Origin: Sinohyriopsis cumingii
Taxonomy: Eukaryota; Mollusca; Bivalvia; Unionida; Unionidae
DNA length: 64,000 nt
Reading direction: 5' to 3'
Assembly (NCBI GenBank): GCA_028554795.2
Contig: CM068826.1
Span: 102,674,346-102,738,345 of the forward strand
Part shown: piece by piece, positions 30,908 through 51,334 of the stretch
Numbering within the stretch: the first letter of the stretch is position 1
Layout: every line of letters begins with the position of its first letter
Translations under genes and position numbers: made by a program
The notes under the pieces: model-generated
What the model was told of the DNA's origin: nothing
The model's input: the letters and a program-made list of their open reading frames with translations, nothing else
Databases searched by the model: none

Positions 30908-30923
30908 GGCCCTGAAAAGGGCC
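30908..30923 (-). terminator. Histone-type 3' stem-loop, left TIR, minus strand
   Basis: On the minus strand: GGCCCT TTTC AGGGCC, a 6-bp stem with a 4-base loop, preceded by CCCAAA and followed by ACTCA. A purine element CTCGAAAAGAGA lies about 14 bases downstream. This fits the replication-dependent histone mRNA processing signal (SLBP stem-loop plus U7 site). It follows the stop of the minus-strand gene at 30948 by about 25 bases. Confidence 0.9.
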
Positions 30924-30947
30924 TTTGGGTTTATGTTAATGTATCCA

Positions 30948-31181
30948 TTAACATAAAGGGCACCGCATTGGTCTTCTTCTTGTCCTTAGGCTGCATCTCA
31001 CTGTAGGACCGTAAATCAGGACTCTTTTGAGGCATCCTTGTCTTTCTACGTAGATCCTACGTATCCACAGACTGGTGTCTGTCCTGTGGACAACTGTCCA
31101 CTTGGATCGGACATACATGGGTATGTCCGTCTGGAACATCATTGAAGACACAAGCGTAGAAGATTGCACATCGGTCCACAT
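30948..31181 (-). CDS. Small unrecognised protein with histone-type mRNA 3' end, 77 aa
   Basis: I do not recognise this protein. The frame runs from an ATG at 31181 to a stop at 30948 and ends in a basic Arg-rich stretch (SLRTRRRPMRCPLC). Two observations support it as a gene. A TATA box (TATAAATA on the minus strand, 31226-31233) lies about 45 bases before the ATG. The canonical histone stem-loop in the left terminal repeat follows about 25 bases after the stop. It is divergent from the gene starting at 31401 and shares a compact promoter region with it. Codon content is unremarkable and no membrane segment is seen. The call as a real gene is moderate; no function is proposed. Confidence 0.55.
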   Translation of the reverse strand: MWTDVQSSTLVSSMMFQTDIPMYVRSKWTVVHRTDTSLWIRRIYVERQGCLKRVLIYGPTVRCSLRTRRRPMRCPLC

Positions 31182-31225
31182 CTTGAGGCACCGAGAACAG
31201 GTGAATCAATGCAGTGAACTGCGCT

Positions 31226-31233
31226 TATTTATA
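31226..31233 (-). promoter_or_regulatory. TATA box for the leftward end gene
   Basis: TATAAATA on the minus strand, about 45 bases upstream of the ATG at 31181. Confidence 0.65.
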
Positions 31234-31269
31234 GGTAGAGGTAGGATTGAAACGGATTGAGTTTGTTGA

Positions 31270-31352
31270 CCAATCCAAACACGCGTTACAAAATTCAGTT
31301 AGCCCGCATCCAATCCGAAGAGAGCAGTCTGTGACGTCACGTGGTCTATATA
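31270..31352 (+). promoter_or_regulatory. Divergent promoter core: two CCAAT boxes, CRE, E-box, TATA
   Basis: CCAAT at 31270-31274 and 31310-31314, TGACGTCA at 31332-31339 overlapping CACGTG at 31338-31343, and TATATA at 31347-31352. The rightward ATG is at 31401 and the leftward TATA box is at 31226-31233. Paired CCAAT boxes between divergent TATA promoters recall animal histone gene pairs; the resemblance is an inference. Confidence 0.6.
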
Positions 31353-31400
31353 GATTCGGTAGCGCCTGTGTGCAGTCAATCTATGCGACAGTGATTCAAC

Positions 31401-32028
31401 ATGACGGAAACTCATTAAACGAGTAACTGGGGTGCACCAGCCGTTGAGACTACACAAGGGAACCCGGACTTACTTTCAGAAGAGGTGAATTGGGATTTTG
31501 TGGATTTTCTTACCTCGCAAGAATTTGTTCCGGAACCTTCGTCACCTTCATTACCACACGTGGAGAATTTTAGCCAGATACAGAAAGAAGAATTGGAGAA
31601 ATTTATACAGCGGCAAAAGGAAGCGGAACAAGCTTTTCTGATACAGCAACAGCAACAAGAAGAAGAGGTAAGAAAAAAAACAACAAGAAGAAGCAGCAAA
31701 GAAACAAGAGGGTGAAAGTCAAACCGTCACGGTACTGTTGGACATTTTAGCGGAGTTAAGAAATCTGAAACAAATGTATCAGACTTCTTTATTACGACCG
31801 AAGAGAATACGACCTTCCCGAGCTAAACACGCCAACCCTGTGACTAAGCCTACCGTACCACCCTTAGTGATTTCAACCAAATCATCATCATCAGAAGTAG
31901 GCCTCGGCCGTGGCAAAGGCTTAAGGCAGTTAAAGTTGATTGCTGAAACTCACCCCTACACCAAAAAAAGGCCCTTTTCAGGGCCACCCACGTCTCTCGA
32001 AAAGAGATACACTTTCAATTGCCAATAA
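31401..32028 (+). pseudogene. Glutamine/glutamate-rich gene with histone-type 3' end, disrupted
   Basis: I do not recognise the product. An ATG at 31401 follows the TATA box by about 50 bases. The frame is interrupted by TAA at 31416-31418, continues open to about 31675 with a predicted coiled coil (QIQKEELEKFIQRQKEAEQ), shifts frame in the A run at 31672-31680, and continues from 31681 to a stop at 32028 through a basic Arg-rich part (LLRPKRIRPSRAKH). The histone-type stem-loop at 31970-31985 lies inside the last stretch of open frame, so a processed mRNA would end before the stop codon. That is odd and suggests a lost earlier stop or a further frame error. GAGGTAAGA at 31665-31673 resembles a 5' splice site, but no matching acceptor is visible. 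Confidence 0.6.
31970..31985 (+). terminator. Histone-type 3' stem-loop, internal left
   Basis: GGCCCT TTTC AGGGCC followed by ACCCA, preceded by CCAAAAAAA. A purine element GAAAAGAGA starts at 31999, 14 bases after the stem. This is the best match in the window to the canonical histone mRNA end, including the ACCCA flank and the AAAGAG core of the U7-binding site. Confidence 0.92.
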
Positions 32029-32236
32029 CTCAAAAAAAACAAAAAAAAACAACCAATCCATTTTACCCCTATAGTACGTGTCTGTGTATGAGTGTGTGAG
32101 TGTAGGTTCTTATTTTAAAATCAAAACTCTCAAAGACACTTACCTTATATAAGTAATGTATTCTTTTATCAATAGTTACAATCCAATTCACAACAGAGCA
32201 CTTTAAAAATTTCATAGACTCCTTCTGTCTCATTGT
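32029..32236. other. Spacer between convergent genes
   Basis: The sequence CTTTCAATTGCCAA just before it (32010-32023) also follows the stem-loops in both terminal repeats. No polyadenylation signal is evident for the zinc-knuckle gene on the minus strand. Confidence 0.4.
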
Positions 32237-32704
32237 TTAGTCTCTCTGTTTTTTAAATTTCTTCACCGTCACATTCTTTTCCACCTCTTCCTCCTCACTT
32301 TCTTCCCTTCTTCTTTTCTTCTCCTGTTTCTTTTTCTTTACCTGGCTGCTTTCTTCCTCTGAAGAATCCCTCTCTTCTTCTGAAGAATCCCTCTCTTCTT
32401 CTGAAGAATCCCTCTCTTCTTCTGACTCCTCTTGTTTCTTTTTTGGGCAATCTGGAGACCAATGTCCTTTTTCTTGACAATAATAACAGGTATCTTGACT
32501 TTTGTCTTTTCTAGCCCCTTTTTTTCTTTTTTGATGGTCTGGACACTCTGAAGACCAATGCCGTTTCTTCTGACAGATATAGCAAGTATCTTGACTTTTA
32601 TCTCGAAAGGAAGGAGAGTAGTCCGTCGGCTGGTCTGAAGAGAATTTTCTAATGACCCCTCGCAAAGCTCTGATGAAACGTTCGATTTGGCTAGTCTCTT
32701 CCAT
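32237..32704 (-). CDS. Double CCHC zinc-knuckle protein, 155 aa
   Basis: Two zinc knuckles of the form C-x2-C-x4-H-x4-C lie at residues 41-54 (CYICQKKRHWSSEC) and 73-86 (CYYCQEKGHWSPDC), each preceded by DKSQDT, so the module is an internal duplication. The C-terminal half is a charged tail with three copies of SSEEERD followed by Lys/Arg-rich sequence. CCHC knuckles bind single-stranded nucleic acid in retroviral nucleocapsids and many RNA-binding proteins. A nucleic-acid chaperone or packaging role is plausible but not shown. The gene is intact and opposes the polymerase gene. A TATA box (TATATAAAA on the minus strand, 32759-32767) lies about 55 bases upstream of the ATG. I know no such gene as a standard Polinton component. 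Confidence 0.85.
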   Translation of the reverse strand: MEETSQIERFIRALRGVIRKFSSDQPTDYSPSFRDKSQDTCYICQKKRHWSSECPDHQKRKKGARKDKSQDTCYYCQEKGHWSPDCPKKKQEESEEERDSSEEERDSSEEERDSSEEESSQVKKKKQEKKRRREESEEEEVEKNVTVKKFKKQRD

Positions 32705-32758
32705 CGTTGTGCTCAGTTAGAGAGTGAAATGAATAGTGAAAGGACAAGACACACACCC

Positions 32759-32767
32759 TTTTATATA
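32759..32767 (-). promoter_or_regulatory. TATA box for the zinc-knuckle gene
   Basis: TATATAAAA on the minus strand, 55-60 bases before the ATG. Confidence 0.7.
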
Positions 32768-32784
32768 CGCTGGTCTGCCATGAC

Positions 32785-32790
32785 TATAAA
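32785..32790 (+). promoter_or_regulatory. TATA box for the DNA polymerase gene
   Basis: TATAAA within GACTATAAATTAG, about 50 bases upstream of the ATG at 32839; it lies back to back with the TATA box of the zinc-knuckle gene. Confidence 0.65.
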
Positions 32791-32838
32791 TTAGCCCATG
32801 GTGTTTAAACTTGAGTCATTTGACGTTTTTCACTCAAG

Positions 32839-35800
32839 ATGAAACGATCCTATTCATTCGAGAAGAAAGAAGAAGAAAGTAAGAGGCAGAAACGTGATCT
32901 ATCGCCTCGTACCAGGGCTGAAGTCTTGGCACAAATTCATGCCAGTGATTTTGAAGAGGACATGAGTGAACCAGAATCCGAACCCTCTAAACAAAGTTCA
33001 CCACCCTTAGTTAACCCTGAAAAGTACTATTCCATTCGAGAGACGGAAAAGCGCTCCTCTAGAAAATTTAGAACCACGGCTTACAAATACACAGTGAAGT
33101 TTAAAGATTTCAAGTCCGAAGTACCGTTAGAGAAAGCAGAAGGGTTCATCACTGGGGTGTGGGATTCTTTGCTCACCTCACTCAAGCGACAATGTCAACC
33201 CAAAGAAGACGATCGCTTGAGACTTTCCATACAACACGACGGTTTGAAATCCCCTGTTTGGATCGAGTTTAGCAGACCCGCAGAACTAACCCCTTCCAAA
33301 GTCATGGACAAGATTCAACACGTGCAACAATCTAATGACCAGTTTGACATCACCGATGGAAAAGCCACACTGGACATGACCCACGTCTCTCCTCCTCAAG
33401 GGACCGGACAACGCAGTAAGGTGTTACTGGTGAACGACCTTCGCAGCACCAAAAAGAGTCTCGTCCAAATTCACAATTCTCAAGACCACATGTGTTTAGC
33501 CCGAGCCATCGTGGTGGGACGAACCTATGCCGACAAGAACGACACGGTAGAATGGAAAAGAACCTGGAAAACTATTCAACAATCCGACCGAGCCAAACAA
33601 CGAAAGGAAGCAGAACTCCTGTTACAACAAGCCGGACTGTCCAAAGACACACCCTGTGGCATTCCTGAGATGCAGAAATTGCAAGATGTCCTAGCTCCAC
33701 GCTACACCTTGAAAGTGCACCCTCAAGAAGTGCGTGGGCCTCTGTTGTTTCGAGGCCAAGACTTTAAGGACGGAAAATACATTCATGTATATTATCACGA
33801 TGACCATTTCGATACCATTATCAGTATCACTGCATTCCTGGGATACGGTTATTACTGTGAGAAATGTGACCATGGTTATAATAATCGAGAGCAACACAAA
33901 CATTGCGGATTGAAATGCTCAGGATGTTTGACCTCTCCGCCCTGTCTGAGCGAAGGACAAGAAAGAGTACATTGTCCTGCTTGTCTGCGCACGTTTGTCA
34001 GCCCTGCCTGTTACCAACAACATCTGAAGAGGCAAGGTTCACAGCAGAAATGTGCTTGTCAACTCCTGAGATTGTGCCGCACGTGTGGACAAGGCATACG
34101 TACCAATAATGCCAAGACACACGTATGTTCAGGAAAGAAAAAATGTCACATTTGTCACCACATCGTGGACTTGGAACACCAATGCTACGTGCAAAAATAC
34201 CAACCCCCACCAGAGAAAGAGGACGGTCACAAGAAGAAAGGCAATTTCATCTTTTTCGATTTCGAATGCATGCAAGAGACCGGCATTCACATTCCCAATT
34301 TCTGCGTGGCTCATCGAGCGTGCGAGAAGTGCATTCAAGAACCTATCTTCAGTCATTGCCCTCACTGCAGCAAGATTCCTGGAGGACGTGAAAAAATCTT
34401 TCGGGGACCGAACACGTTAGCCGATTTCGCTCGATGGGTCTTAGACCCCATCGACAAGACGTGGAGCCAAGAGGACATCGAACGTTACGGAGATTGTCAT
34501 CGTCATGCCACGGTGATGGCTCACAATTTCTCCGGATACGATGGACAGTTTCTTCTCAGATACTATACGGAACATGGCACCGAACGTCCTAAAGTGACTT
34601 TGAACGGAGCCAAAATCATTTTCATGCAAATGGGACAAGTACAGTTTAAAGATTCGATGAGCTATTTGGCCATGCCTTTGAGTCGAATGCCTAAAACGTT
34701 TGGAATGACAGAAATGGCTAAAGGGTACTTTCCACACTTTTTCAATACGGAAGACAATCAACACGCCGTTCTACCCCATTTACGTGATGCTCACTATTAC
34801 GACCCCGACAACATGCGTACCGAACAACGAGAAGCTTTCTACGCTTGGTACCAGGCTCATGCCTCCGACCCCTTCGACTTTCAGGAAGAAATGCTAAAGT
34901 ATTGTCGTTCCGACGTGGATATTTTACGGCGTTGCTGTGGAAAATTTCGAGAACTGTTCATGGAACACGGAGGGGTCGATCCTTTGAAAGAAGCTTGCAC
35001 CATTGCCAAAGCGTGTTCCTTAGTGTACCGGCAACGATTCATGCCTGAAAACACCGTTGCTGTCATCAGTCCTCAAACGACCAACTATGTCAAACGTCAG
35101 TACTCGGTCAAAGCCCTACGCTGGTTACATTACTTATGCGACAAGGAAGACAAGTGGATTCAGCATGCCCGCAACGGAGGAGGCGAAAAGACCATCGGAA
35201 CGCATTCGGTCGATGGCTGGGACTTAGAAAACCCCAAGATCGTGTACGAGTTTAACGGTTGCTTATTTCACGGATGTCCCGTCTGTTATCATGACCGTGG
35301 CACTAAAAATCAGTTTTTACAACGAACCATGGAAGACTTGTACCAGGCCACTTGTCAGCGACGCCTAAAGTTAGAACAGGAAGGATACCAAGTGGTGGAA
35401 ATGTGGGAACACGAATACGATCACCGTTTGAAAACCGATCCCGAGTTTAAACGCCTCGTGGAAAGTTACCATTCATGGACCCCCTGAACCCGAGGGATAG
35501 TTTGTACGGAGGATGGACCAATGCCACCTTTTTGCTGTACCAAGCCGACGAAGAGAAAGGAGAAGAAATGAAATACTTGGACGTGTGTTCGCTGTATCCC
35601 TACGTGTGCAAATATTGTCGCTTTCCTGTAGGGCACCCACAATTGCTGACGGAACACATCGACCTGAAAAACATTCGACAATACGAAGGCTTGATCAAGT
35701 GCAAAGTTTTGCCGCCCACGGACTTGTACCATCGCGTGTTACCTCACCATTGCCAAGGCAAACTGATGTTTCTTTTGTGCCGTACTTGTGCCGAAACATG

Positions 35801-36882
35801 CAACCAAGATCAGCCTTGTCAGCACACCCAGGAAGAACGTGCCTTGACGGGACGTGGGTTAGCGTGGAATTGTTCAAAGCTCTGGACATGGGATACCACC
35901 TGTTAGAAGTGTACGAAATTTGCCGCTTTCCCAAGACACAACAATACCACAAGGGTGACCCCACGCAGAAAGGCAGTTTCGTCGACTACGTGGATGCCTT
36001 TTTGAAACTGAAGCAAGAAGCCAGCGGCTATCCTTCCTGGTGTCACACTTCCGAAGACCAAAAGACATTCAAAGAAAAATACGATGAACAAGAAGGCATC
36101 CCTTTAGACCACATCGAGAAAAACGAAGGCAGGCGATCGTTTGCCAAAGTGATGTTAAATTGTTTGTGGGGTAAAATGGCACAACGCCCGTGTTTACCCA
36201 AGACAGAATATTTGACAGAACCTTCCCGCTACTTCCAGATGATTCACGACAAAACCAAATACATGAAACACGTGGACATCGTTCGCGAGGATTTGATCTT
36301 GGTCAATTACGAAGAAGATCTGGACTTTGTATAAGCCGACGCATTTGGAAATGTCATCATTGCGGCTTACGTGACAGCTCATGCTCGCTTAAAATTGTAC
36401 GAAGCTTTAGAACTGTTAGGGGAACGCGTCCTGTACTTTGACACGGACAGTTGCATTTACATCCATCACCCGAGTCAACAGCACCCTGACATCGAAGGAG
36501 ACCGTTTAGGAGCCTGGACAGACGAGCATCCCGACGACAAGATTCTAAGTTTCGCCAGTGGCGGTCCCAAAAATTACGGTTACGAATACCGGGACCCACA
36601 AGGAGAAGTGCACACGACGTGCAAAGTGAAAGGATTGACTCTGAATTATCGTACCAGTCGTGTGGTCAGCTTTGGGGTATTGAAAAAAGCCTTGCAATCT
36701 GTAAGGATGAACATTTTAAAGTGACCACCTATCAACCGAACAAGATTGTACGTTTACCCACTCACCACATCGTCAGTTGACCCTTGGAAAAAGTCTATCA
36801 AATCGTGTACCAGAAGCGAGTGCGACTTCCCAATCATTTCACTTTGCCGTATGGACATGTTGGTATAAAACTTTGGTTGTAA
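32839..36882 (+). pseudogene. pPolB: Protein-primed family B DNA polymerase of the Polinton, disrupted
   Basis: The replicative enzyme of Polintons: family B polymerase with 3'-5' exonuclease. Only the first 882 residues (to 35487) are in one frame. Visible parts in order: a charged N-terminal region; a Cys/His-rich segment at about residues 340-455 with many C-x2-C pairs; exonuclease motifs FFDFECM (near residue 473), HNFSGYDGQF (near 562) and YCRSDVDIL (near 687); then, in other frames, polymerase motifs SLYPY (35588-35602), the K-x3-N motif region AKVMLNCLWG (36143-36172) and YFDTDS (36435-36452). Breaks: frame changes near 35475-35490, 35835-35860 and 36695-36710, and in-frame stops at 36332-36334 and 36778-36780. 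All catalytic motifs survive, so the decay looks recent. No histone-type 3' end follows it. Confidence 0.95.
36862..36870 (+). promoter_or_regulatory. TATA box in the polymerase 3' end, for the first BIR gene
   Basis: GTATAAAAC overlaps the last codons of the polymerase gene, about 45 bases before the ATG at 36906. Confidence 0.5.
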
Positions 36883-36905
36883 GCGGATAGCCACCCACCA
36901 GAAGG

Positions 36906-37362: not shown

Positions 37363-37366
37363 AAAG
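37358..37366 (+). promoter_or_regulatory. TATA box for the second BIR gene
   Basis: TATAAAAAG, 55 bases before the ATG at 37421. Its TAA is the stop codon of the upstream BIR gene. Confidence 0.7.
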
Positions 37367-37420
37367 GGGCTATGGTCAAGATCGATAGTTCATTGGGACT
37401 ACCAAGACCGAGCGAACAAG

Positions 37421-38060
37421 ATGAATACTTTCAGAGAAACACAAAGCAAGTTTAGACAGGCACAATTCAAGTGTGGGGCTTCGGAAGTGGAATGCGATTG
37501 TGAGCCTTTCGATGGGTACGATGCTGTACATTGTGACCTTAGCGATGCCGTAAAGCATCATGGGAACTTTGTTCTCACTACCCTGTCATGGAAAGTGATG
37601 CTGTGCGTGTCAAACCTGAGGGATGCGAAAGCGATGCCACTCGTCCTCTTGGACATTTTACTGGGTTTCGTTTTAAAGGTGGATGTTCACCTTCACGTCT
37701 ACCCCCCCACCCCTACGGATGTCATCCAGCCCTGAGCAAACTCCTGCCCATGCACTCAACCCTCATCGAAACGAACCTGTGAAAGACGAATATACGTTTC
37801 CTGTGCGTTTGTCGGAATACTGCGACTTTGAAAATCGTCTTCAATCGTTCAAAGGAAAATGGCCTAAGTATCTGGGAGGCCCGACCCCCGAAGAATTAGC
37901 CAGAGCCGGATTTTTCTACTTGGGCGAAGGAGATAAAGTCAAGTGCTTCAGTTGCGGTGTGTCACTTCACCACTGGGAACAGAAAGATTCGGCCTACGTA
38001 GAACATGCTCGATGGTCACCGAATTGTCATTACTTACCCTTAGTGGGACCGAGACATTGA
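37421..38060 (+). pseudogene. BIR-domain (IAP-like) gene 2, BIR domain intact, 5' part frame-broken
   Basis: The 3' part (from about 37836 to 38040) encodes an uninterrupted BIR domain: RLQSFKGKWP, ELARAGFFYLGEGD, KCFSCG, W, D and EHARWSPNC, with the zinc ligands in the pattern C-x2-C-x16-H-x6-C. The N-terminal part from the ATG at 37421 is in a different frame and is Cys/Asp-rich, so at least one frame change separates it from the BIR part (region 37540-37720). A downstream ATG at 37719 is in the BIR frame and could start a shorter protein. There is no RING or CARD. It is the neighbour and likely duplicate of BIR gene 1. Anti-apoptotic function is inferred from the family. Confidence 0.88.
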
Positions 38061-38082
38061 AGTAACTTACCATAATCTGTTC

Positions 38083-38538
38083 ATGGATACTTTACACGAG
38101 AACATTCGTGCTTTGCCTGTGGAATTGAGAGAACGCATTTACCGAGAGCTGGTCAAAATACAAGTCAAACGTAAAGAACAATTGCATCCGTTACGTCACC
38201 AGATCTTTAATCACTGGTACCTGAATGCTATAAAAGGACCGATTCAGTTGAAAGTGTTCCATTGGATAGACATTGATCAACAACCCCCTGGTTTTAAAAA
38301 GGATTGGTTTGTTATTGACGATTCTATCTTCTACAATGTAAACGTACTGCATCCAGTTCCAGAGGAAGAGTTAACGAATTACCGACATCTTTTACACAAT
38401 GTCAACTTAGTGAAAGAGGAAACTTATGAACGAATTGTAATGTGTAAATTAGTCACTAAAGGATTTAAATTTGGCACTGAAGTAAAACCATGCATGTGCA
38501 AACGGTACATTTCTTCTGTCAGACAAAAGAGGATTTAG
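38083..38538 (+). CDS. Unrecognised protein with F-box-like N terminus, copy 1, 151 aa
   Basis: The N terminus reads ALPVELRERIYRELVKIQV (residues 10-28). LP-x-EL-x3-I-x3-L is the consensus of the first part of an F-box, the module that recruits substrates to SCF ubiquitin ligases; the match is short, so this is only suggestive. The remaining 120 residues have no recognised domain. The gene is intact and is followed 13 bases after its stop by a second copy. The first ~65 residues of both copies are almost identical, while the C-terminal two thirds have diverged strongly, as if the variable part contacts different partners. It sits beside the BIR genes in what looks like an accessory, host-directed block. 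Confidence 0.7.
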   Translation: MDTLHENIRALPVELRERIYRELVKIQVKRKEQLHPLRHQIFNHWYLNAIKGPIQLKVFHWIDIDQQPPGFKKDWFVIDDSIFYNVNVLHPVPEEELTNYRHLLHNVNLVKEETYERIVMCKLVTKGFKFGTEVKPCMCKRYISSVRQKRI

Positions 38539-38550
38539 TATGACCTGTTT

Positions 38551-39069
38551 ATGGATACTTTACACGAGAACATTCGTGCTTTGCCTGTGGAGTTGAGAGA
38601 ACGCATTTACCGAGAGCTCGTCAAAATACAAGTCAAACGTAAAGAACAGTTCCATCCGTTACGTCACCAGATCTTTAACCACTGGTACCTGAATGGTATA
38701 AGAGAACTGATTCGTCAGAAATTGTTTCAGTGGTCAGACGTTGTTCAATACTTCCAAGCCCCCGATGATCCACGTGTTGATCATTTTGGTTACTTCGAGA
38801 TTCACCTAGTACAACACATTGAAGAAGACAAGGTAAAGGATTACCGACATATTTTACGTGGAATCTACTTAGCGGAAGAGGAAACTTCTAAACGAAGTCT
38901 GACGTTTCGGTTACAGTATGCAACATTTAAATTCCCCACTGGAGAACGAACATCTCTGGCTAGAAAGTACGTGTATTGTTTCCGAAATAAAGAGACTATA
39001 AAAACAGGCTGCCATGCCACGACTTTTATCGCATGTAATCCAACAGATTCCGTGGAAGGAACTCAATGA
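38551..39069 (+). CDS. Unrecognised protein with F-box-like N terminus, copy 2, 172 aa
   Basis: Tandem paralogue of the preceding gene, 468 bp downstream start to start. Residues 1-33 are identical, and similarity continues to HQIFNHWYLNxI (about residue 50), after which only scattered matches remain (KDYRHIL, LAEEETSKR). It is open from ATG to stop. The next gene begins at 39014 inside its 3' end, in another frame. Function unknown; the F-box-like start is the only clue. Confidence 0.7.
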   Translation: MDTLHENIRALPVELRERIYRELVKIQVKRKEQFHPLRHQIFNHWYLNGIRELIRQKLFQWSDVVQYFQAPDDPRVDHFGYFEIHLVQHIEEDKVKDYRHILRGIYLAEEETSKRSLTFRLQYATFKFPTGERTSLARKYVYCFRNKETIKTGCHATTFIACNPTDSVEGTQ

Positions 39070-39792: not shown

Positions 39793-40498
39793 ATGTCACA
39801 AGTGACATTTCTAACACTGTGGCTACCTCTGCTGTCTCTGCTCCCTCTTCCTCTACTGTCAAAGTCATCGACGAACACTTAGATCGTGCCAGTTGGGAGG
39901 CTTTGTATCTTCGCCATCCCTTTAACATGCTCTTTGCTGGACCTAGCGGTTCAGGCAAAACCGAATACGTTAAACGTTTGATCGAACATAAACATCATTT
40001 GATCGATCGACCACCTCAGCGGATCGTGTGGTGTTACAAAGAGTGGCAATCGGCGTACAGCCTCTTGCGAGAAAGTCAAGGCGATTCCATCGTGTTTGTG
40101 GAAGGCATTCCTAAAGAAGACGACGGCATCGTCTCTGACTCCCTCAAACCCATTTGGTCATTTTTGACGACATGTTAGGAGAAGACGAAGAAGAAATTAA
40201 ACTGTGGTTCACGCGCAAAGGGCATCACCGTAATGCCAGTGTCGTTTACATCACCCAAAATTTGTTTCAACAAAGTAAAGCCCATCGCACCATCAGTCTC
40301 AATGCTCATTACGTGGTCTTGTTTAAAAGCCCTCGAGATAAATCGCAAGTGCAAGTCTTAGTCAAACAGTTAGAAACGCCTTGGCTGACTGAGGCGTACG
40401 ACGATGCCACTCAAACTCCACACGCCTATTTACTCGTCGATTTGAAACCTACGACCCCCGAGGATTTGCGATTTCGTACCCACTTGTTTCACCATTGA
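39793..40498 (+). pseudogene. Genome-packaging ATPase (FtsK/HerA-A32-like), disrupted
   Basis: The P-loop ATPase that pumps DNA into capsids of Polintons and adenovirus- or poxvirus-like viruses. The Walker A motif GPSGSGKT lies at 39938-39961. The Walker B region (VIFDDML, about 40154-40177) is in a different frame, so there is a frame change near 40150-40170. The following part VYITQNLFQQ matches the sensor region of the family. The first ATG (39793) is also out of frame with the ATPase core, pointing to a second frame change between 39793 and about 39825. Total coding length of about 235 residues fits Polinton ATPases. Located upstream of virion-type genes, as usual. Confidence 0.92.
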
Positions 40499-42314: not shown

Positions 42315-43279
42315 ATGGAAGGACGAAAACTAGCTTTAGTACCTTACAAACGATGGATGGAATACCATCGTTGGCAAGAACAACGCACCCCGCATTTACC
42401 TCCCAATCCCAATTTGAGCGAGATTTCCCAGTTACAACACGAATTGCAGTCCTTGATGGATCGCCAAGATTTGTCCGAAACAGAAAAATCGCAAAAGTAC
42501 GGTCAACTCTTGCAACGACTGCAACTCTTTCACCAGAAGGCTTTAGACGAAACAGCTCTACCCACTCTGAAAGATTTTAAGACCTTGATGAAAAGGCCAG
42601 CACCATCATCACTACCACCACCACCACCACCACTACTGCCAACCCCACGGGTCACCAGAGATGCTACCCCACGAAGACCTGAGGAAGAAGATATGCGAGA
42701 AGTGTTTCAAACACCGTCAGCAGCTCCCATTTCGAGTAAGATTGCAGCATCCTTGTTGACCCCGTCCCCCACACCCCAACGAGAAGAAATGAAAGCTAGG
42801 GTTAAAAAGATGATGTTGTTGTTGTTGGGTTTAACGCCATTTTTCAGCACGCGATTGGCTATACATGGCGGCCAGTATTAATGGTGGAGGAAGAACCCGG
42901 GAAAACCCAGGAAAGAACCACCGACCCACGAGAAGCTACTGGCAAGCTTTCTCACATACCCACATTAGCCGAATCCGAGACTCGAACCCACGCAGACAGC
43001 GGTGAGATGGCAGTGATCTGTTACGGAGAACGCTTTAGACCACTCGGCCACTCGGGGCCCCAAAAGATGATGTCCATTCCTCCTTCGACAGAAGTGAAAA
43101 AGAAAGAAGGGAAACCAGAAGTGAAAAAAGAAAAGAAAACCAAAGCCATTCCATTGCCACCTCCACCACCACTACCTTCGACTTCTACTCCCGTAGCCCA
43201 TCGGACACATAAATCCGTTTCTAAACCACCCTTTCGACCCACCCAAAGTAGCATCACCGAAGAGTGGGTGACTTATTAA
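42315..43279 (+). pseudogene. Proline-rich virion-type gene split by a SINE
   Basis: The ATG at 42315 lies about 45 bases after GATAAAAAG (42262-42270). The N-terminal part (KLALVPYKRWMEYH, then helical sequence with ELQSLMDRQDLSETEKSQK) is followed by a proline-rich linker (SSLPPPPPPLLPTP) and charged sequence. At 42805-42815 the frame meets an inserted SINE-A (42816-43061). After the SINE, in another frame, the gene resumes at 43062 with MMSIPPSTEV, a Lys/Glu stretch and PLPPPPPLPS, ending at 43279. The 11-bp duplication and SINE (257 bp) shift the frame, so the protein is truncated. A KLALVP-type N terminus is typical of an uncharacterised Polinton gene family. Confidence 0.8.
42816..43061 (-). 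repeat. SINE-A copy inside the Polinton, with target duplication
   Basis: Complete reversed SINE-A: the plus strand begins TTGTTGTTGTTGGGTTTAAC and ends with the reversed tRNA head CACTCGGCCACTCGGGGCCC. Flanked by an 11-bp perfect repeat AAAAGATGATG at 42805-42815 and 43062-43072. It interrupts a Polinton gene and so is younger than the Polinton insertion or at least than this gene copy. Confidence 0.97.
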
Positions 43280-44408: not shown

Positions 44409-44413
44409 CCATC

Positions 44414-45777: not shown

Positions 45778-45780
45778 GTC

Positions 45781-47268
45781 ATGTATCCAGTGTACCGAGG
45801 GGTTGCTCGACAGCGAGGACACGGTTTAGGAGATATGTTAAAATCGGCCTTTCGTTCGGTGGCCCCGGTGTTGAAAGCGATGGTGACACGCGGATTGCAC
45901 GCCTCGAAAGATGCGGCACTGACGCAAGGCAAAGAATTTCTCCAAAATGTCATCATCGACAAAAAAAACCCCAAAGAAGCCTTCATGAGGGCAGGCAAAA
46001 ATATCTTGCTACAAACGTGTAAAGACCTTTTGGGCCGACGAGACACACCTATAAATGCCCTGCACGCTACCGAGTCAGGCATTCAGCAAGGACAAGGCAG
46101 AAAGAGACGACGAAGTAAACACCCTTTCACCAGACTTCACACGTCTAAAGCTAGAAAGGCAAAGAAAAGAAGAACCGTTCGAGACTTAGACGTTTTCGAG
46201 AAAGTAGCTCCCGTCAACAATTTCATGCATTCCTTGTTCAGCTCAGTGGACTTGTACTTGAATAACAAACTGGTCAGCAGCAGCATGGATACTTACCCTT
46301 ATCGTGCCTACCTGGACAATCTCTTGACGTACGGAATAGATGCCAAGAATACTCATCTCAATGCTTGTGTCCTATGGGAACCTAACGAAGCGACCAAGTT
46401 TGACATAATAGATAAAAGCAATGACGGCTTTGAGGAAAGACGAAACAAAATCAAAGATGGAAAGAGTTTAGAACTGATTGATCGTTTGCATTTGGACATG
46501 TGGTTGCAAGAGAAATATTTGCTGAACGGGGTAAATGTTCGCTTGAGACTGAATCGTAGCAGTACTGCTTTCCATTTGTTGGCTGATGCTGATGCTACTA
46601 CTGGTGGCAATCCTAAAAGCAAAATCGAGGAGGTCAAACTCTACGTACGACGCGTGGAAGTGTTACCCAAACTGGGAAACGACATTAGTCAGACATTGAG
46701 CAGAACGACCGCCAAATATCCCATACGACGCGTGGAAGTGAAAACCTTCACCATTCCCACTGGACATCATTCCATGATCGAAGATCATCTGTTTCAAGGA
46801 CAGTTACCCAAACGTTTAATCCTTGGTATGGTCAAGAATTCAGCCTTCAACGGAGACTTCACTAAAAATCCTTTTAAGTTTAAACACTTTAAGGTGAAGA
46901 AAATCGAAGTCAGTCGCGATGGCAAGACCTTGTGTACCAGACCTTTCGAACCTGACTTTAGTGACACGAAGATGAATTACTTGAGATCGTACTTGTCCCT
47001 GTACGAAGCCACCGGCCAGTTAGGGACCAACACCAGTCACGGCATTACGTACGAAGATTACGCTGGAGGCTATGCTTTGTGGGCTTTCGATTTCACTCCA
47101 GACCAAGGCAGTGACGAGGGACATTTCCACCCTATAAAATCCGGCCAGATTCGTGTGGAACTTCAGTTTGCAGAAGAAGTGAAAGAGACAGTGAACGTCA
47201 TCCTGTATGCAGAATTCGATAATACGATAGAAATCAACAGTTTGAGAGAAGTCATTCTAGACTATTAG
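45781..47268 (+). CDS. Major capsid protein, apparently fused to the preceding small basic gene, 495 aa
   Basis: From about residue 144 (VNNFMHSLFSSVDLYLNN, YPYRAYLDNLLTYG) to the end this is a Polinton double-jelly-roll major capsid protein, intact to the stop. Residues 1-140 are different: VYRGVARQRGHGLG, a helical part and a basic tail (GRKRRRSKH, KARKAKKRR). That looks like the separate small gene that usually lies between penton and capsid genes. The usual N-terminal strands of the capsid protein are not seen between them. I infer an in-frame deletion that joined the two genes and removed the start of the capsid protein; alternatively this lineage has a genuine N-terminal extension. The RKRRR and KKRR stretches could act as nuclear localisation signals. 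Confidence 0.85.
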   Translation: MYPVYRGVARQRGHGLGDMLKSAFRSVAPVLKAMVTRGLHASKDAALTQGKEFLQNVIIDKKNPKEAFMRAGKNILLQTCKDLLGRRDTPINALHATESGIQQGQGRKRRRSKHPFTRLHTSKARKAKKRRTVRDLDVFEKVAPVNNFMHSLFSSVDLYLNNKLVSSSMDTYPYRAYLDNLLTYGIDAKNTHLNACVLWEPNEATKFDIIDKSNDGFEERRNKIKDGKSLELIDRLHLDMWLQEKYLLNGVNVRLRLNRSSTAFHLLADADATTGGNPKSKIEEVKLYVRRVEVLPKLGNDISQTLSRTTAKYPIRRVEVKTFTIPTGHHSMIEDHLFQGQLPKRLILGMVKNSAFNGDFTKNPFKFKHFKVKKIEVSRDGKTLCTRPFEPDFSDTKMNYLRSYLSLYEATGQLGTNTSHGITYEDYAGGYALWAFDFTPDQGSDEGHFHPIKSGQIRVELQFAEEVKETVNVILYAEFDNTIEINSLREVILDY

Positions 47269-47273
47269 AAGCT

Positions 47274-47777
47274 ATGGAAGACTGTTATCCCTCTTTACCT
47301 AGTGGAGAAACTTTGGACATGGAATGTGAGGAGACCGTGGAAGGAGAATCCCAAGACAAAGACGAAGAAGTTGTCATGATGAAGTCGAGATGGCCAGAAC
47401 AAGAAGCCCATTTAGTCTCCTGTTTTGCCAAACACTTGGTCGAAAAAATGACGGAATTGATCAAGAAAGATTGCTATGGATGTCAAAACGATCATCCCAG
47501 TCAAATTCAACACGATAAATGCCTGATGCTGAGTCAAGAAGAAAAATTGGACGAGTATCTGGACGATGCTTGGAGTCTCATCTCGGACGAAGTCGTGTTG
47601 CACCAGTGGTATAAAAACTTGCGTGAACATTCTTGTCCACCATTAACCACTCAAGAGATCGATCGTATCGAAGCTCTCCTGAATCAAAGTGAGGAGACGA
47701 AACGAAGAAACGGTTATTTGTCAGACATTTTCAAGCAAAAAGTCAGGATCGAATTGATGACTTATTATTACCTGTGA
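47274..47777 (+). CDS. Polinton conserved Cys/His protein of unknown function, 167 aa
   Basis: Intact gene starting 5 bases after the capsid stop. An acidic N-terminal part (residues 10-40) is followed by a helical region and CYGCQNDHPSQIQHDKC at about residues 67-83, a putative zinc-binding motif of the form C-x2-C...H...H-x2-C. The C-terminal half is helical. A protein with this Cys-Gly-Cys...HPSQ...H.C pattern recurs next to the capsid gene in Polintons. CCTATAAAA at 47132-47140 lies about 135 bases upstream. Function unknown; a role in assembly or late regulation would be guesswork. Confidence 0.75.
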   Translation: MEDCYPSLPSGETLDMECEETVEGESQDKDEEVVMMKSRWPEQEAHLVSCFAKHLVEKMTELIKKDCYGCQNDHPSQIQHDKCLMLSQEEKLDEYLDDAWSLISDEVVLHQWYKNLREHSCPPLTTQEIDRIEALLNQSEETKRRNGYLSDIFKQKVRIELMTYYYL

Positions 47778-47798
47778 AGAAGAAAAACAAAACAAAAC

Positions 47799-48358
47799 AT
47801 GGATACCTGGGAACTTTATTACCTTTTGAACCACAGTTCGTATACGGCTTCTTGGAATCCTGTCGTCTGTGCTAAAGATGAACTCCCTCATCGCAAACCT
47901 CAAGACCATCTAGCTTATTTGATCAACACAGACGACAGTCATCTCCCAGGAACCCACTGGGTAGCCGTTTACTTTCCTCAAGAAGGATGTGTGGAATATT
48001 TCGATTCGTACGGATTTCTCCCTTTGGAAGACGATATCATTGACTTTGTGAGAAGAAATGCTCAGACCACCCGATTCAATAATGTGAAATTACAAGGCAC
48101 AGATTCCTTGGTGTGTGGACAATATTGTGTGTATTTTCTGCATCATCGCAGCCTGGGCTATTCCTTAGAACATTTAGTGACTCATTTGATCCTCGTTCTT
48201 CTTCTAGAAACGATGTGAAAGTAGATCGATGGTTTTGTGACCATTATGCTTATCTTTTGTCTCAAGCTAGGAAACGTAGTGTCCATCAGTGGCCTAATGA
48301 TTTCCAACAGTGGAAATCACAATTTCATTCACAACGTTGTCAGCCCTGTTTAAAGTAG
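47799..48358 (+). pseudogene. Adenain/Ulp1-like maturation cysteine protease, frame-broken near the 3' end
   Basis: Processes capsid precursors in Polinton-type virions. The catalytic landmarks are present in the first frame: His in GTHWVAVYFP (near 47955), Asp in EYFDSYGF (near 48003) and the nucleophile Cys in VCGQYCVYF (48112-48138). The frame is lost near 48175-48190; C-terminal coding continues in another frame (DVKVDRWFCDHYAYLL) to a stop at 48358. The expected length of about 185-190 residues fits the family. No histone-type end follows; AATAAA motifs occur at 48469-48474 and 48519-48524. Confidence 0.92.
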
Positions 48359-48600
48359 AGTGTTAATTGAAAAAAAAAATGTTTGTCATTTGAAAAAAAT
48401 GTTTGATGTTATATTGTTGGATTATTGTTAAAAATGTTAGAGTTGTTTGTTAGTGTTAAGTGATTTTGAATAAAAAATGTTGTGTTTTGAAAAAAAATGC
48501 CTTTGTCTTTTGTTTGGCAATAAAAATGTTGATTCATGCTCTTTGACTTCTTACTATCCCTCTCATGACACTCATTGAACGTTGCGGCTCGAAAACCGTA
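48359..48600. other. Low-complexity 3' region of the protease gene
   Basis: Contains repeated GAAAAAAATGTTTG-like units and two AATAAA polyadenylation signals. No coding content. Confidence 0.6.
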
Positions 48601-48602
48601 GA

Positions 48603-48641
48603 GGGATGTTTTCCTTCACGTCCGCGCTTTGACTTTAAGAA
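48603..48641 (+). promoter_or_regulatory. Right-end promoter motif, copy for gene A
   Basis: GGGATGTTTTCCTTCACGTCCGCGCTTT followed by GACTTTAAGAACC. The first 28 bases are nearly identical to the motifs before genes B and C. The TATA position is degenerate here (TTTAAG). The motif ends about 50 bases before the ATG at 48694. Confidence 0.8.
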
Positions 48642-48693
48642 CCGGGGTAGTTTCCAGTCTAACCATCCATTGTCGACTCATCCTCCTACGAAG

Positions 48694-49062
48694 ATGTGCT
48701 CCAAACTAGCTAAGCTAAACGAAGCCTACGTGAATTTGCATAGGGTCAGACACAGTCTGATACCGAAGCCAGAAGAGATAGAGAATGTGAGAATGTTAAA
48801 AGTCACTGAAGACCTGATAGAAGAGCTCTTCAGAGAAGAAGTGAACAGGGAGAAAGAAGAATGGACAGAGAAGTACAGACTTCAGAGACATCAGCAACAG
48901 CAACAACAACAACAGCAGCAGCAGCAACCTGAACCTGACAGAGCCTTTGTCGATTGTCGTATCGACACAAAGAGTTCTTCTCTTTCCGAAGAAGCAGACC
49001 TATCGTCAGAAAGTCTATCCTCAGAGGACGTCGCATTCTTAGAAACTAAAAGATTGCCATAG
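48694..49062 (+). CDS. Right-end cassette gene A, helical polyQ protein, 122 aa
   Basis: I start it at the ATG at 48694 (MCSKLAKLNEAYVNLHRVRH), because an earlier in-frame ATG at 48565 lies before the conserved promoter motif. The protein is predicted helical, with a polyglutamine run (HQQQQQQ..., about residues 68-79) and a Ser/Glu-rich tail (SSSLSEEADLSSESLSSED). Its N-terminal pattern KL..L...Y..L..VR resembles genes B and C, so the three are probably paralogues. The stop is followed 16 bases later by a histone-type stem-loop. Not a histone; I know no family. Confidence 0.65.
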   Translation: MCSKLAKLNEAYVNLHRVRHSLIPKPEEIENVRMLKVTEDLIEELFREEVNREKEEWTEKYRLQRHQQQQQQQQQQQQPEPDRAFVDCRIDTKSSSLSEEADLSSESLSSEDVAFLETKRLP

Positions 49063-49078
49063 CAAACAACAAAAAAAC

Positions 49079-49094
49079 AGCCCTTTTCAGGGCT
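49079..49094 (+). terminator. Histone-type 3' stem-loop after gene A
   Basis: AGCCCT TTTC AGGGCT with ACCCA directly after it and an A-rich 5' flank, then the purine element TAGAAAAGAAATA from 49105. The following ~70 bases (to ACACTGACTC) are repeated after gene B. Confidence 0.9.
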
Positions 49095-49115
49095 ACCCAA
49101 TACTCTAGAAAAGAA

Positions 49116-49456
49116 ATAACAATCGATTTGCCAATGTGTGTAGGTAGAGTAGTGTGAATATAAACACTGACTCATTTGTGATGTGAGTGTATGTGTTTGT
49201 GTATAGGATTGTGTGTTTGTAAGTGCTCAAGTACGTTTGTGTGGATAGTAGATTAAGATCATGTTTTTGGCTGTTTGAGATGTGGGGAGAGTAGATTTGG
49301 GGTTTGATTGGATTCCTTTGCGTATGTGAATAGTATATTATTTGTTTAATAAATTTTTTTAGAATAGTGATGGGCAGTATAAAAAAGTGAGTGAGTGTTT
49401 CTTTTAGGTCCGCGCGTTGTTTGGTCATGATCTAGGTAAGATCAATTTTGTTTTAA
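49116..49456. other. Spacer upstream of gene B
   Basis: GT-rich sequence with GGTCCGCGCG (49408-49417) and ATCTAGGTAAGATCAATTTT (49430-49449), a remnant of an extra promoter unit that is also found before gene C. Confidence 0.6.
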
Positions 49457-49493
49457 GGGATGTTTTCCATCACGTCCGCGCTTTCAGTATAAA
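49457..49493 (+). promoter_or_regulatory. Right-end promoter motif with TATA box, for gene B
   Basis: GGGATGTTTTCCATCACGTCCGCGCTTTC then AGTATAAA (TATA 49488-49493), about 50 bases before the ATG at 49544. Confidence 0.85.
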
Positions 49494-49543
49494 TTGAAAC
49501 TCGCTGGGCAGTCTAGCTACCCTGTTCATTCGTTAACAAGACA

Positions 49544-49780
49544 ATGAATACCAGAATAAGCAAACTTCTTGAACTCCAGATACATCTGGAATATGTCAGG
49601 CGCCTGTTAAATGAACTGGCCGCGGAGGCCATAGTAGAAGAGGAAAGAATAAAGAAGGAAGAGGAGGAGAGAAGACAGAGGGAAGAGGAGGAAAAGAAAA
49701 TAGGAGAGAGGATGGCTTACAAGATACCAGAGACAGAGGATTGGGGTGTTGAAACCAATCATCCTCCCTCTGCGCTTTGA
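49544..49780 (+). CDS. Right-end cassette gene B, coiled-coil protein, 78 aa
   Basis: MNTRISKLLELQIHLEYVRR followed by a long Glu/Arg/Lys-rich coiled coil (EEERIKKEEEERRQREEEE), then YKIPETEDWGVETNHPP and a stop at 49780. The start follows the conserved promoter and TATA by about 50 bases. About 100 bases separate the stop from the histone-type stem-loop, and part of that interval is protein-like in another frame (VCVVPGLEDAIINQVSLEF, about 49813-49872), so the protein may once have been longer. Probably a paralogue of genes A and C by its N-terminal helix and its identical flanking signals. Function unknown. Confidence 0.6.
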   Translation: MNTRISKLLELQIHLEYVRRLLNELAAEAIVEEERIKKEEEERRQREEEEKKIGERMAYKIPETEDWGVETNHPPSAL

Positions 49781-49881
49781 AGAAAAAAAGTAAAAGGAGA
49801 CTGGGGAAGAAGATGTGTGTGTGGTGCCAGGTCTGGAAGATGCTATCATTAACCAGGTGTCACTGGAGTTCAAAAACAAAC

Positions 49882-49897
49882 AGCCCTTTTCAGGGCT
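49882..49897 (+). terminator. Histone-type 3' stem-loop after gene B
   Basis: AGCCCT TTTC AGGGCT, ACCCA, then TAGAAAAGAAATAAC. The copy after gene A is identical through at least the first 90 bases downstream. Confidence 0.9.
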
Positions 49898-49984
49898 ACC
49901 CAATACTCTAGAAAAGAAATAACAATCGATTTGCCAATGTGTGTAGGTAGAGTAGTGTGAATATAAACACTGACTCTTTTTCAT

Positions 49985-50160
49985 AGTGTGAGTGTATAAG
50001 TTAATGTATATGATTGTGTGTTAATAAGGGCTAGCATAGGTTAGTGTGAATAGTAGATTAGGGTTTCATTTAATGCTTTGCGTGTGTAAATAGCAGATTA
50101 GGGGTTTGTTTATTGATGCTTCACGTATGTGGATAGTAGATCATATGAAATGAGAAAAGT
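49985..50160. other. Spacer upstream of gene C
   Basis: Loosely repeated units of the type AATAGTAGATTAGGGTTT; no coding content. Confidence 0.5.
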
Positions 50161-50162
50161 AG

Positions 50163-50265
50163 GGGATGTTTTCCTTCACGTCCGCGCGTTTTAAGTGATA
50201 ATCTAGGTAATATCAATTTTGTTTTAGGGGGATGTTTTCCTTCACGTCCGCGCTTTCACTATAAG
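50163..50265 (+). promoter_or_regulatory. Double right-end promoter motif for gene C
   Basis: Two copies of GGGATGTTTTCCTTCACGTC CGCGC at 50163 and 50228, separated by ATCTAGGTAATATCAATTTT GTTTTAGG-like sequence that also occurs before gene B. The second copy runs into TATAAG at 50260-50265, about 50 bases before the ATG. Confidence 0.85.
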
Positions 50266-50315
50266 AACCCACAAAGTTTATTGTTGGAACCATTCTAAGG
50301 AATAACTGAGGCAAA

Positions 50316-50914
50316 ATGACTCAAGTATCAGTTTTATTTAATCTATTGAGAGACATCTATTTTTGGATAATGGATGTAGAATATGTTGTAGGAAGAATAG
50401 AAGAGGAATGGAGGCATGGAGATATGAAAGACTTGGTAACCAGTCAAGTTCAAGGCCTAAAGACAGCAAGAGATATCATAGCAGGGATGATAGAAGAAGA
50501 AGTCAATAAGTCAAGAGGCTTCATTAACCGACCTTACTTCAGAGTGGGAAGTTTGAAGGAAGCACGGAATCATGTCATCCAAGTCCGGTGCTTCCTAGAA
50601 AAGATATTGTACAGGACAGAGTGGAGGAATGTAAAATGGGGGTTGGACAAGATGAAGAAAGGAGAAGATCTGATGAGAAAAGTAATGGAGGAAGAAGTAG
50701 AGAAGATTAAAGAGAGATGGAGGGAAGAAAGAAAAGATGAGGAAACAAAAAGAAAAAGGAAGAGTTTGAGAGGCTTAACAACAATTGGATGAAAATACAG
50801 AGGAAGTTTAGAGAGTTGGGCCATCCTGACTGGTTACCGGAGTCAGATATAAAGAAGAAGAAGAAAGGATTATTAGAAAAGATAAGGGGATGGATGAAGA
50901 AGTGGAGGAAATAA
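50316..50914 (+). pseudogene. Right-end cassette gene C, coiled-coil protein with a late frame change
   Basis: The ATG at 50316 opens a 158-residue frame: an N-terminal helical part (MTQVSVLFNLLRDIYFWIMD, EYVVGRIEEEW), a middle part with SKxRGF-like and YFRVGSLKEARNHV segments, and a Lys/Glu-rich coiled coil, ending at 50792. Around 50740-50760 protein-like content moves to another frame (FERLNNNWMKIQRKFRELG) and runs to a stop at 50912-50914. The likely gene therefore ends there, 25 bases before the right-TIR histone-type stem-loop. Related to genes A and B by promoter, 3' end and helical N terminus. Function unknown. Confidence 0.62.
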
Positions 50915-50929
50915 AAGAAGAAGAAGAAG

Positions 50930-51334
50930 AAACCCAAAGGCCCTTTTCAGGGCCACTCATAGGTCTCGAAAAGAGATTGACTTTCAATTGCCAACCCTCT
51001 TTTTTTATATTTTTTTTAAAAAATAAAAATAAAAATCCCATGTTAAATTTCCCTTGACGCTATACAGTCCCACCCTGTTTAAATTCCCTTGACGCTATAC
51101 AGTCACATATTCCCATGTTCAATTCCCCTTGACGCTCAACAGTCCCAAAATCTATTTCCCATGTTAATTTCCCTTGACGCTAAACAGTCCCATGGTTTTT
51201 TGTCCATGTTAAATTTACATAGACGCTAAACAGTCCCAGGGTGGTTAATGTTAAATTTCCATTGACGCTAAACAGTCCCAGGGGGTTCTGTAATGCTAAT
51301 TCCCATTGACGCTGAATCGTCCCCTTTCACTACT
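50930..51334 (-). repeat. Right terminal inverted repeat
   Basis: Inverted copy of 30531-30931, including the histone-type end, the A/T tract and the repeat array (51050-51320, seen as TTGACGCTAAACAGTCCCAG). Differences from the left copy are few and scattered. Confidence 0.95.
50939..50954 (+). terminator. Histone-type 3' stem-loop, right TIR
   Basis: GGCCCT TTTC AGGGCC with 5' flank ACCCAAA and 3' flank ACTCA, then CTCGAAAAGAGA at 50965-50976. Mirror copy of the left-TIR signal; here it follows gene C. Confidence 0.92.

Follow-up and report, generated by a model that had tools for sequence, protein, structure and literature searches.

Why should genes near the ends of a virus-like mobile element finish like histone genes? 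The question is raised by 64,000 nucleotides of the genome of the bivalve Sinohyriopsis cumingii (assembly GCA_028554795.2, contig CM068826.1, positions 102,674,346 to 102,738,345 of the forward strand; hereafter the window, to which all coordinates refer), which harbor a Polinton/Maverick element of 20,804 bp. The mRNA 3′ end formed by the stem-loop binding protein SLBP and the U7 small nuclear ribonucleoprotein (U7 snRNP) is usually regarded as exclusive to replication-dependent histone genes. An earlier inspection of the bare letters (the sequence-only reading) had proposed that five 3′ ends of this type tie non-histone genes of the Polinton to the S phase of the host. This reading is supported by the present analysis, which indicates that the end-proximal genes, termed L-, L+, R1, R2 and R3, are quite probably expressed as histone-type mRNAs, with processing and S-phase coupling being predictions from the sequence.

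Stem-loops and downstream elements at the end-proximal genes

The five perfect stem-loops reported by the sequence-only reading were all verified in sequence, position and strand. GGCCCT-TTTC-AGGGCC occurs at 30908–30923 (minus strand; copy in the left terminal inverted repeat (TIR), 3′ end of L-), 31970–31985 (plus strand; 3′ end of L+) and 50939–50954 (plus strand; copy in the right TIR, 3′ end of R3), and AGCCCT-TTTC-AGGGCT at 49079–49094 and 49882–49897 (both plus strand; 3′ ends of R1 and R2, respectively). The first three sites reach the gathering score of the Rfam model RF00032 with 37.5, 36.7 and 37.5 bits (E-values of 2.3e-7 to 4.8e-7); both AGCCCT/AGGGCT sites score below it, yet they have perfect 6-bp stems with matching flanks. 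When four stretches (31970, 49079, 50939 and 30908) were folded, the hairpin formed as expected, with energies ranging from −9.0 to −11.4 kcal/mol, the latter value being that of the site at 30908. When both strands of the 64 kb were scanned for the hairpin geometry (six Watson-Crick pairs, TTT loop, at least three G/C in the 5′ arm), exactly these five stems and no others were found, and stems with at least four G/C in the 5′ arm are followed by GAAAAG in five of five cases. Two hundred sequences generated from the dinucleotide model of the window contained a mean of 0.115 stems and no stem with GAAAAG, and RGCCCTTTTCAGGGCYACYCA, allowing up to two mismatches, was observed five times in the window versus zero times expected from 100 shuffles. 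An origin by chance was rejected on the basis of the shuffles, the dinucleotide-model null, and reversed-pattern controls for the stem and for the promoter box described below.

At all five sites, a spacer of 13 nt separates the stem from GAAAAG, which corrects the distance of about 10–14 bases given by the sequence-only reading. The histone-type downstream element reads GAAAAGAGA in the modules of L- (30886–30894, minus strand), L+ (31999–32007, plus strand) and R3 (50968–50976, plus strand), and GAAAAGAAA in those of R1 (49108–49116) and R2 (49911–49919), both on the plus strand. Directly 3′ of the stem, the window modules carry ACCCA or ACTCA. A third conserved word, ATTTGCCAA or CAATTGCC[AT]A, is present 12 nt past GAAAAG in the element modules (30868–30876, minus strand; 32017–32025, 49126–49134, 49929–49937 and 50986–50994, plus strand).

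Since the stem-loops at 30908 (minus) and 50939 (plus) represent one sequence present in both TIR arms, and since those at 49079 and 49882 are located in a 107-nt tandem duplicate of 98% identity, the R2 module being the duplicate of the R1 module, the five stem-loops correspond to three independent sites. An alignment of the window modules over 59 nt shows 75–88% identity, indicating common ancestry.

Two of the five stem-loops are situated exactly at the inner edge of a TIR, as would be expected if the hairpins acted in DNA or as TIR elements, in transposition, protein-primed replication or packaging, and merely resembled histone signals. We consider such a role very improbable, however, because internal copies are located behind genes away from the ends, because the features of a single-stranded RNA (UUUC loop, ACCCA, purine element at 13 nt) match those of host histones, and because the signal in the sites read is usually found 3′ of a sense-oriented frame.

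The sequence-only reading had placed all five stem-loops just after short open frames. For 49079 and 30908 this is correct, the stop codon preceding the stem by 16 and 24 nt, respectively; in the window copy, breaks or shortening affect the frames 5′ of 31970, 49882 and 50939, whereas frames in other copies of the element end near the stem. Over 74 distinct sites (fetched loci plus the window), the longest upstream frame stops 8–42 nt before the stem in 49; at the other 25, the frame is broken or truncated where the locus ends, or a gene located further upstream provides the longest frame. Within the window, no stem-loop follows the genes for replication and for the virion (PolB, integrase, capsid and a putative protease), consistent with what had been claimed for the polymerase and capsid genes. 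The block of capsid and putative protease, which lacks a stem-loop, is followed by AATAAA hexamers at 48469 and 48519 (48469–48524, plus strand).

Gene L- (30948–31181, minus strand) codes for a basic protein of 77 aa without a Pfam match. The frame of the L+ region (31401–31968, plus strand) is broken in the window copy; the longest frames found elsewhere comprise 186–191 aa. R1 (48694–49062, plus strand) encodes 122 aa without a Pfam match above the cut-off, R2 (49544–49780, plus strand) is shortened in the window copy, and R3 (50316–50792, plus strand) codes in the window copy for a predicted four-helix protein of 158 aa. The gene classes encountered over the 74 sites are mostly L- (76–77 aa), L+ (up to about 190 aa), R1 (about 120 aa), R2 (about 110 aa) and R3. 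No histone family was among the Pfam matches of L-, L+, R1 and R3a, leaving the idea that the stem-loop genes are derived histones without Pfam support for the proteins scanned. The R3 slot is occupied either by R3a, R3c or R3d, which are homologous (50–55% identity), or by R3b, which shows no clear relation to them. In hhalign comparisons among the R families, a probability of 100 was obtained only for R3a/c/d, followed by R3a–R3b (39%) and R2–R3b (35%); assignment of R1, R2 and R3 to a single family was rejected, since hhalign backs only R3a/c/d, with a distant R3a–R3b or R2–R3b link being conceivable. A protein database search returned no homologues of R3, and a Foldseek comparison of its single-sequence fold (pLDDT 80) with two libraries returned no match at E ≤ 0.001.

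Conservation of the module and comparison with host histone genes

As a check, the sequence-only reading had suggested searching other Polinton copies of the same genome with RF00032. Among 75 of 589,472 first-look candidates in the host genome that were scored, the best eight loci all represent ends of other element copies, and stem-loops are present there. In the host genome of 2.9 Gb, the exact pattern RGCYCTTTTCAGRGCYAC was counted 39,773 times and its reversed control not once; as each copy has three to five sites, the count suggests that the host holds on the order of ten thousand element copies or fragments.

When copies of the end genes were located by protein motif in the fetched loci, a stem-loop (≤2 mismatches) was found within 1 kb downstream in 52 of 53, and GAAAAG (≤1 mismatch) behind it in 51 of 53; 43 further copies were excluded because less than 1 kb of their locus lies downstream. 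Hence, the stem-loops are not missing from related copies; their absence there had been named by the sequence-only reading as a possible refutation. This retention test is partly circular, since a stem-loop had served as bait for most of the loci. In a less circular selection based on the capsid only (6 of 84 scored copies), the right end of the element was inside the fetched stretch in five of six cases, and 13 of 13 expected stem-loops were present, 12 of them exact and one with one changed base. One of these 13 modules lacks the first base of GAAAAG. The sixth stretch, L071, contained no element sequence.

For an alignment that is not biased towards the stem, the anchor GAAAAGA...TTGCC was used, which misses modules without GAAAAGA or TTGCC. 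It provided 72 sites; one of the 73 candidates, at window position 43129 inside a coding frame and with one of six pairs, was omitted. The mean information amounts to 1.82 bits in the loop, 1.67 and 1.62 bits in the stem arms, 1.69 bits in the ACCCA stretch and, by construction of the anchor, 2.00 bits in GAAAAGA, as compared to 0.12–0.19 bits in the upstream flank (−100 to −40) and 0.52 bits at +32 to +80. Among the 46 anchor sites that had not been used as bait, 39 show six of six pairs and seven show five of six. The homologous genes R3a, R3c and R3d, whose open reading frames are 64–71% identical at the DNA level, agree in 16/16 positions of the stem and in 8–9/9 positions of the purine element; further downstream, 8–24/48 positions are identical (ungapped).

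All five cluster histones of one host unit (H4, H2B, H2A, H1 and H3) end in RF00032 stem-loops (35.0–39.4 bits), which follow the stop codon by 27–38 nt. A spacer of 13–14 nt and GAAAAG come next, so that the core of the purine element and its spacing equal those of the Polinton modules; the full bipartite signal of histone type that the sequence-only reading had recognized is borne out by this comparison. Like replication-dependent histone genes of metazoans, the end genes combine a six-bp stem, a UUUC loop, an A-rich 5′ flank and a purine element 13 nt past the stem with a stop codon often 8–42 nt before the stem and, at the right end only, with a histone promoter box. Unlike these, they code for products that are not histones, and they reside, dispersed, in a mobile virus-like element outside the histone array. 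The host histone quintet is organized in tandem units of about 8.27 kb (contigs such as C531, C801 and C941; locus L075), and a search for host H4 resulted in 114 matches, mostly full-length.

The bases following the stem in the five cluster histones are ACAAA, ATACA, ACACA, ACTTT and ACACA. Since ACCCA/ACTCA of the window matches none of these five histones of the unit read, and since the modules are found behind several gene families without detected relationship, a fresh capture of a 3′ end from the histone array is unlikely. The sequence-only reading had also named the capture of a single histone end without conservation as an outcome that would contradict it; fresh capture is not supported and the module is conserved, but the shared ancestry of the modules stands. 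Words related to ATTTGCCA of the element, located 12 nt past GAAAAG, occur at 12 nt in host H2A and, less exactly, at 14 nt in H4 and H3.

The protein database contains 19 homologues of L+ with 58–90% identity. One of these, P0128 (69% identical), continues beyond the usual stop with the tail PISGPPTSLEKRYYVNCQ, which agrees with the translated stem-loop module (window 31972–32025) in 15 of 18 residues (E 7e-7). Because P0128 reads through into the translated module, the latter is located behind the same gene in another source as well; the first differing residue, I for F, implies that one base of the stem region is altered in this copy. A motif check revealed no such tail in the other 18 homologues (one of 19 only). 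Viral contigs searched by stem-loop pattern, capsid and capsid alignment yielded nothing confirmed, and the two matches of the stem-loop pattern in genome contigs, both bacterial (Mycobacterium and a metagenome-assembled genome (MAG) of Marinicella), are about at chance level.

The single ancestry of the modules and the related words past the purine element of H2A and, loosely, of H4 and H3 could also be accounted for if one host histone 3′ end had entered the element in a single capture and had been multiplied there by duplication, as a functionless, passive relic. In that case, however, retention of the stem, loop, ACCCA stretch and GAAAAG next to neighbouring DNA that was not retained would be difficult to explain. 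Moreover, the outer pair of the stem differs between the GGCC and AGCC classes, and is still paired in both (G-C or A-T); the module is sense-oriented near the stop codon of gene families without detected relationship; it is accompanied by a histone promoter box at the right end; and it is located behind the same gene in another source. Taken with these observations, passive relics are a highly unlikely explanation.

Promoter boxes and predicted expression of the end genes

Besides the 3′ modules, the right-end genes carry putative histone promoter boxes, a new observation that adds to those of the sequence-only reading. A box is located 5′ of R1 at 48603–48627 (23/24 positions identical to the host H2B promoter box), and two boxes precede R2: an H4-type box at 49398–49418, identical to the host H4 promoter in 21/21 positions, and a box at 49457–49481, where 49459–49482 is identical to the host H2B promoter (24/24) and 49456–49482 matches the H1 promoter in 26/27 positions. 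R3 is preceded by a distal box at 50163–50187 and a proximal one at 50229–50253, the latter 6 nt before TATAAG; all of these are on the plus strand. The boxes at 48603, 49457, 50163 and 50229 are instances of one 25-bp box, and all five occurrences of the core GTCCGCG within the window are upstream of R1, R2 or R3. Relative to the H4, H2B and H1 boxes of this host, the element box is identical or nearly so over 21–27 nt, and factor binding is predicted; the host H2A promoter contains an inverted relative. At the right-end genes, a TATA-like box usually adjoins the histone box; the left pair L-/L+ has a shared CCAAT/TATA promoter.

Within 400 nt upstream and with up to three mismatches, the box was detected at 61 of 62 right-end genes (R1 31/32, R2 14/14, R3a 3/3, R3b 7/7, R3c 4/4, R3d 2/2) and at none of 67 capsid or protease sites (0/45 capsid motif sites, these being motif hits with up to two per copy, and 0/22 protease sites). 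Genome-wide, the exact box has 30,227 matches (reversed control, 0). Pairing of stem-loops and boxes was followed for 100 listed stem-loops in the first 5.9 Mb of contig C1, with 80 of the 100 listed boxes inside the compared range; two of the stem-loops were left unclassed (an unpaired outer position and a T-G pair). An exact box on the same strand, 408–497 nt upstream, is present for 40 of 54 AGCC-class stem-loops, and within 1 kb on the other strand for 0 of 54; the chance expectation within 1 kb is about 0.7%. With a histone promoter box 5′ and a histone-type module 3′, the right-end genes resemble histone genes at both ends. The R3 slot contains R3b in loci L001, L005, L009, L020 and L025, and R3a/c/d in loci L004, L015, L016 and L072–L074, with promoter box and 3′ module being the same in both cases; this pattern looks as if coding cassettes had been exchanged.

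We take the box to resemble Site II of human H4 promoters, which is bound by HiNF-P (HINFP). A search of the open-access literature gave nothing joining HINFP with ACGTCCGC. HiNF-P is reported to recruit NPAT and to exert its effect at the H4 promoter (PMC5706932; PMC3137613). H4 promoters under HiNF-P/NPAT control share with the element a box ending in GTCCG near a TATA box.

From the sequence, position and conservation of these signals, and from their identity with host histone signals, we infer the factors, the RNA processing, the timing and the benefit outlined below. Host SLBP would bind the stem-loop in the pre-mRNA, and U7 snRNP would pair with the GAAAAG element (CTAGAAAAGA, CTCGAAAAGAGA) and cleave 4–5 nt past the stem. 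All five end genes would then finish like replication-dependent histone genes, and their mRNAs, devoid of a poly(A) tail, would be translated in S phase and destroyed once DNA synthesis stops. Since host histone promoter boxes precede the right-end genes, the case for S-phase expression is stronger than in the sequence-only reading; because the box is that of host H2B, H1 and H4, these genes would probably be activated at G1/S by the same HINFP-like factor, and their recruitment to the histone locus body is conceivable. L- and L+ would be driven by the CCAAT/TATA promoter that they share. As a net effect, the gene set would be made only in cycling cells, with host replication proteins and nucleotides at hand. 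We lean, with some reserve, towards the further proposal that the element lineage rebuilt this gene class as false histone genes, with box and TATA in front, an SLBP/U7 end behind and exchangeable cassettes between. Transcription and processing of these genes would then take place in the histone locus body during S phase, a mode that may account in part for the very high copy number in the host.

Several of the end-gene products are small and of unknown function, and some are basic, so that a protein encoded by the element might bind the stem-loop instead of host SLBP. Since the element signal equals that of the host in stem, spacing and purine core, however, host factors should suffice, and the end-gene products scanned did not match any known RNA-binding family; an element-encoded binder is therefore most improbable. 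Processing by two routes deserves more consideration. Some histone variants, e.g. H2AX, are bimorphic, and the Polinton genes might likewise form stem-loop ends in cycling cells and polyadenylated read-through transcripts in non-cycling cells. AATAAA hexamers at 49348, past the R1 module, and at 51022/51028, in the TIR past the right module, would be compatible with this mode, but AT-rich DNA yields such hexamers by chance, and we regard bimorphic expression as possible rather than probable.

Several observations weigh against expression of the end genes as histone-type mRNAs, or narrow its scope. These same hexamers downstream of some stem-loops make poly(A) forms possible. The box was detected at none of 24 left-end genes (L- 0/13, L+ 0/11); in the pairing sample, an exact box is present within 1 kb upstream of 4 of 44 GGCC-class stem-loops, a class that mixes left ends and R3; and no box was found in the host H3 promoter of the unit read. 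The factor is a HINFP-like candidate, named after the resemblance of the motif, and its binding is a prediction. A search of the host for U7 with RF00066 gave no convincing candidate (best score 29.3 bits, E 0.27, cut-off 34), and no exon of host SLBP was matched by PF15247, for which the search controls were silent, too; we read both as limits of the searches, since the host histone genes carry the same signals. The window copy is decayed, with several frames broken, and an R2 copy in locus L024, the single miss among the 53 end-gene copies, has no stem-loop within 1 kb. In the AGCC class, the region from +32 to +80 is also conserved (1.32 bits), so that the stem stands out less distinctly, and the sites are not independent, since the copies are related to one another.

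The sequence-only reading knew of no previous description for Polintons, and none was found: in the open-access literature, judged by title, histone-type 3′ ends or promoters are not described for Polintons or other mobile elements. Adenoviruses and polyomaviruses drive S phase in trans via Rb/E2F, and their mRNAs are polyadenylated. The Polinton resembles these small DNA tumour viruses in having small end-proximal genes that would be tied to the host cell cycle; unlike theirs, its coupling would operate in cis, via borrowed histone signals. If correct, this would represent a new mechanism by which a parasite couples the expression of its genes in cis to replication of the host, and it would bear on the gene expression and spread of Polintons, about whose activity in animals little has been learned so far. 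Non-histone genes with histone signals would permit direct tests of what those signals do alone, and the very many natural copies record mutations both in the promoter box and in the histone processing signal.

The Polinton and its other genes

The element, which has two gene classes, is a Polinton/Maverick (adintovirus-like), as judged from the target-site duplication, inverted arms, PolB, rve integrase, chromodomain and capsid homologues. It extends from 30531 to 51334, with the termini AGTAGTGAAAGG...CCTTTCACTACT, and is delimited by a 6-bp target-site duplication, TAGCGT, at 30525–30530 and 51335–51340; the span of 30908–50977 given by the sequence-only reading is corrected by these boundaries. 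The left TIR comprises 30531–30932, its inner edge coinciding with the 5′ flank of the stem-loop, and the right TIR 50930–51334; the arms (I1–I3) are 88–99% complementary. As in Polintons, the TIRs are long and begin with AG. Each TIR contains six degenerate copies of a 45-nt repeat (30575–30826 and 51038–51290).

A type B DNA polymerase (PF03175) was identified in two pieces with E-values of 1.3e-16 and 1.1e-10, its frame being broken in the window copy. The integrase (rve, PF00665; E 3.8e-14) is followed by a chromodomain (PF00385; E 1.2e-7) in the next frame. The protein family that we take to be the capsid of bivalve Polintons has 724 homologues among 8000 scored and no Pfam match; those named among the 120 of 724 listed derive from Mercenaria, Saccostrea, Ostrea, Crassostrea and one Candidatus Thiodiazotropha MAG. 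The capsid frame of the window (45781–47268) encodes 495 residues, about 90 fewer than most other listed copies (about 580–590). An adenovirus-type cysteine protease (PF00770) was matched with an E-value of 0.0062, which does not reach the cut-off, and the frame 40172–40498 looks ATPase-like by eye and has no Pfam match. In its TIRs, 6-bp target duplication, PolB, rve integrase with subsequent chromodomain frame, and a capsid family that also occurs in bivalve genomes, the element is like known Polintons/Mavericks and adintoviruses; histone-type 3′ ends and histone promoters are not described for these in the passages of PMC11071296 consulted or in the literature searched.

Among the remaining frames, 37683–38060 codes for a protein with a BIR (inhibitor-of-apoptosis) domain (E 2e-24), and a CCHC zinc-knuckle protein encoded at 32237–32704 (minus strand) adjoins the L+ stem-loop and has no stem-loop of its own. 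Two tandemly duplicated frames, 38083–38538 and 38551–39069, start with MDTLHENIRALPVELRERIYRELVKIQ and are 88% identical over 214 nt, the first being without a Pfam match. Elsewhere in the window, two tRNA-like sequences with mismatched pairs are located at 12455–12527 and 14525–14597 (both minus strand), possibly representing tRNA-derived short interspersed elements.

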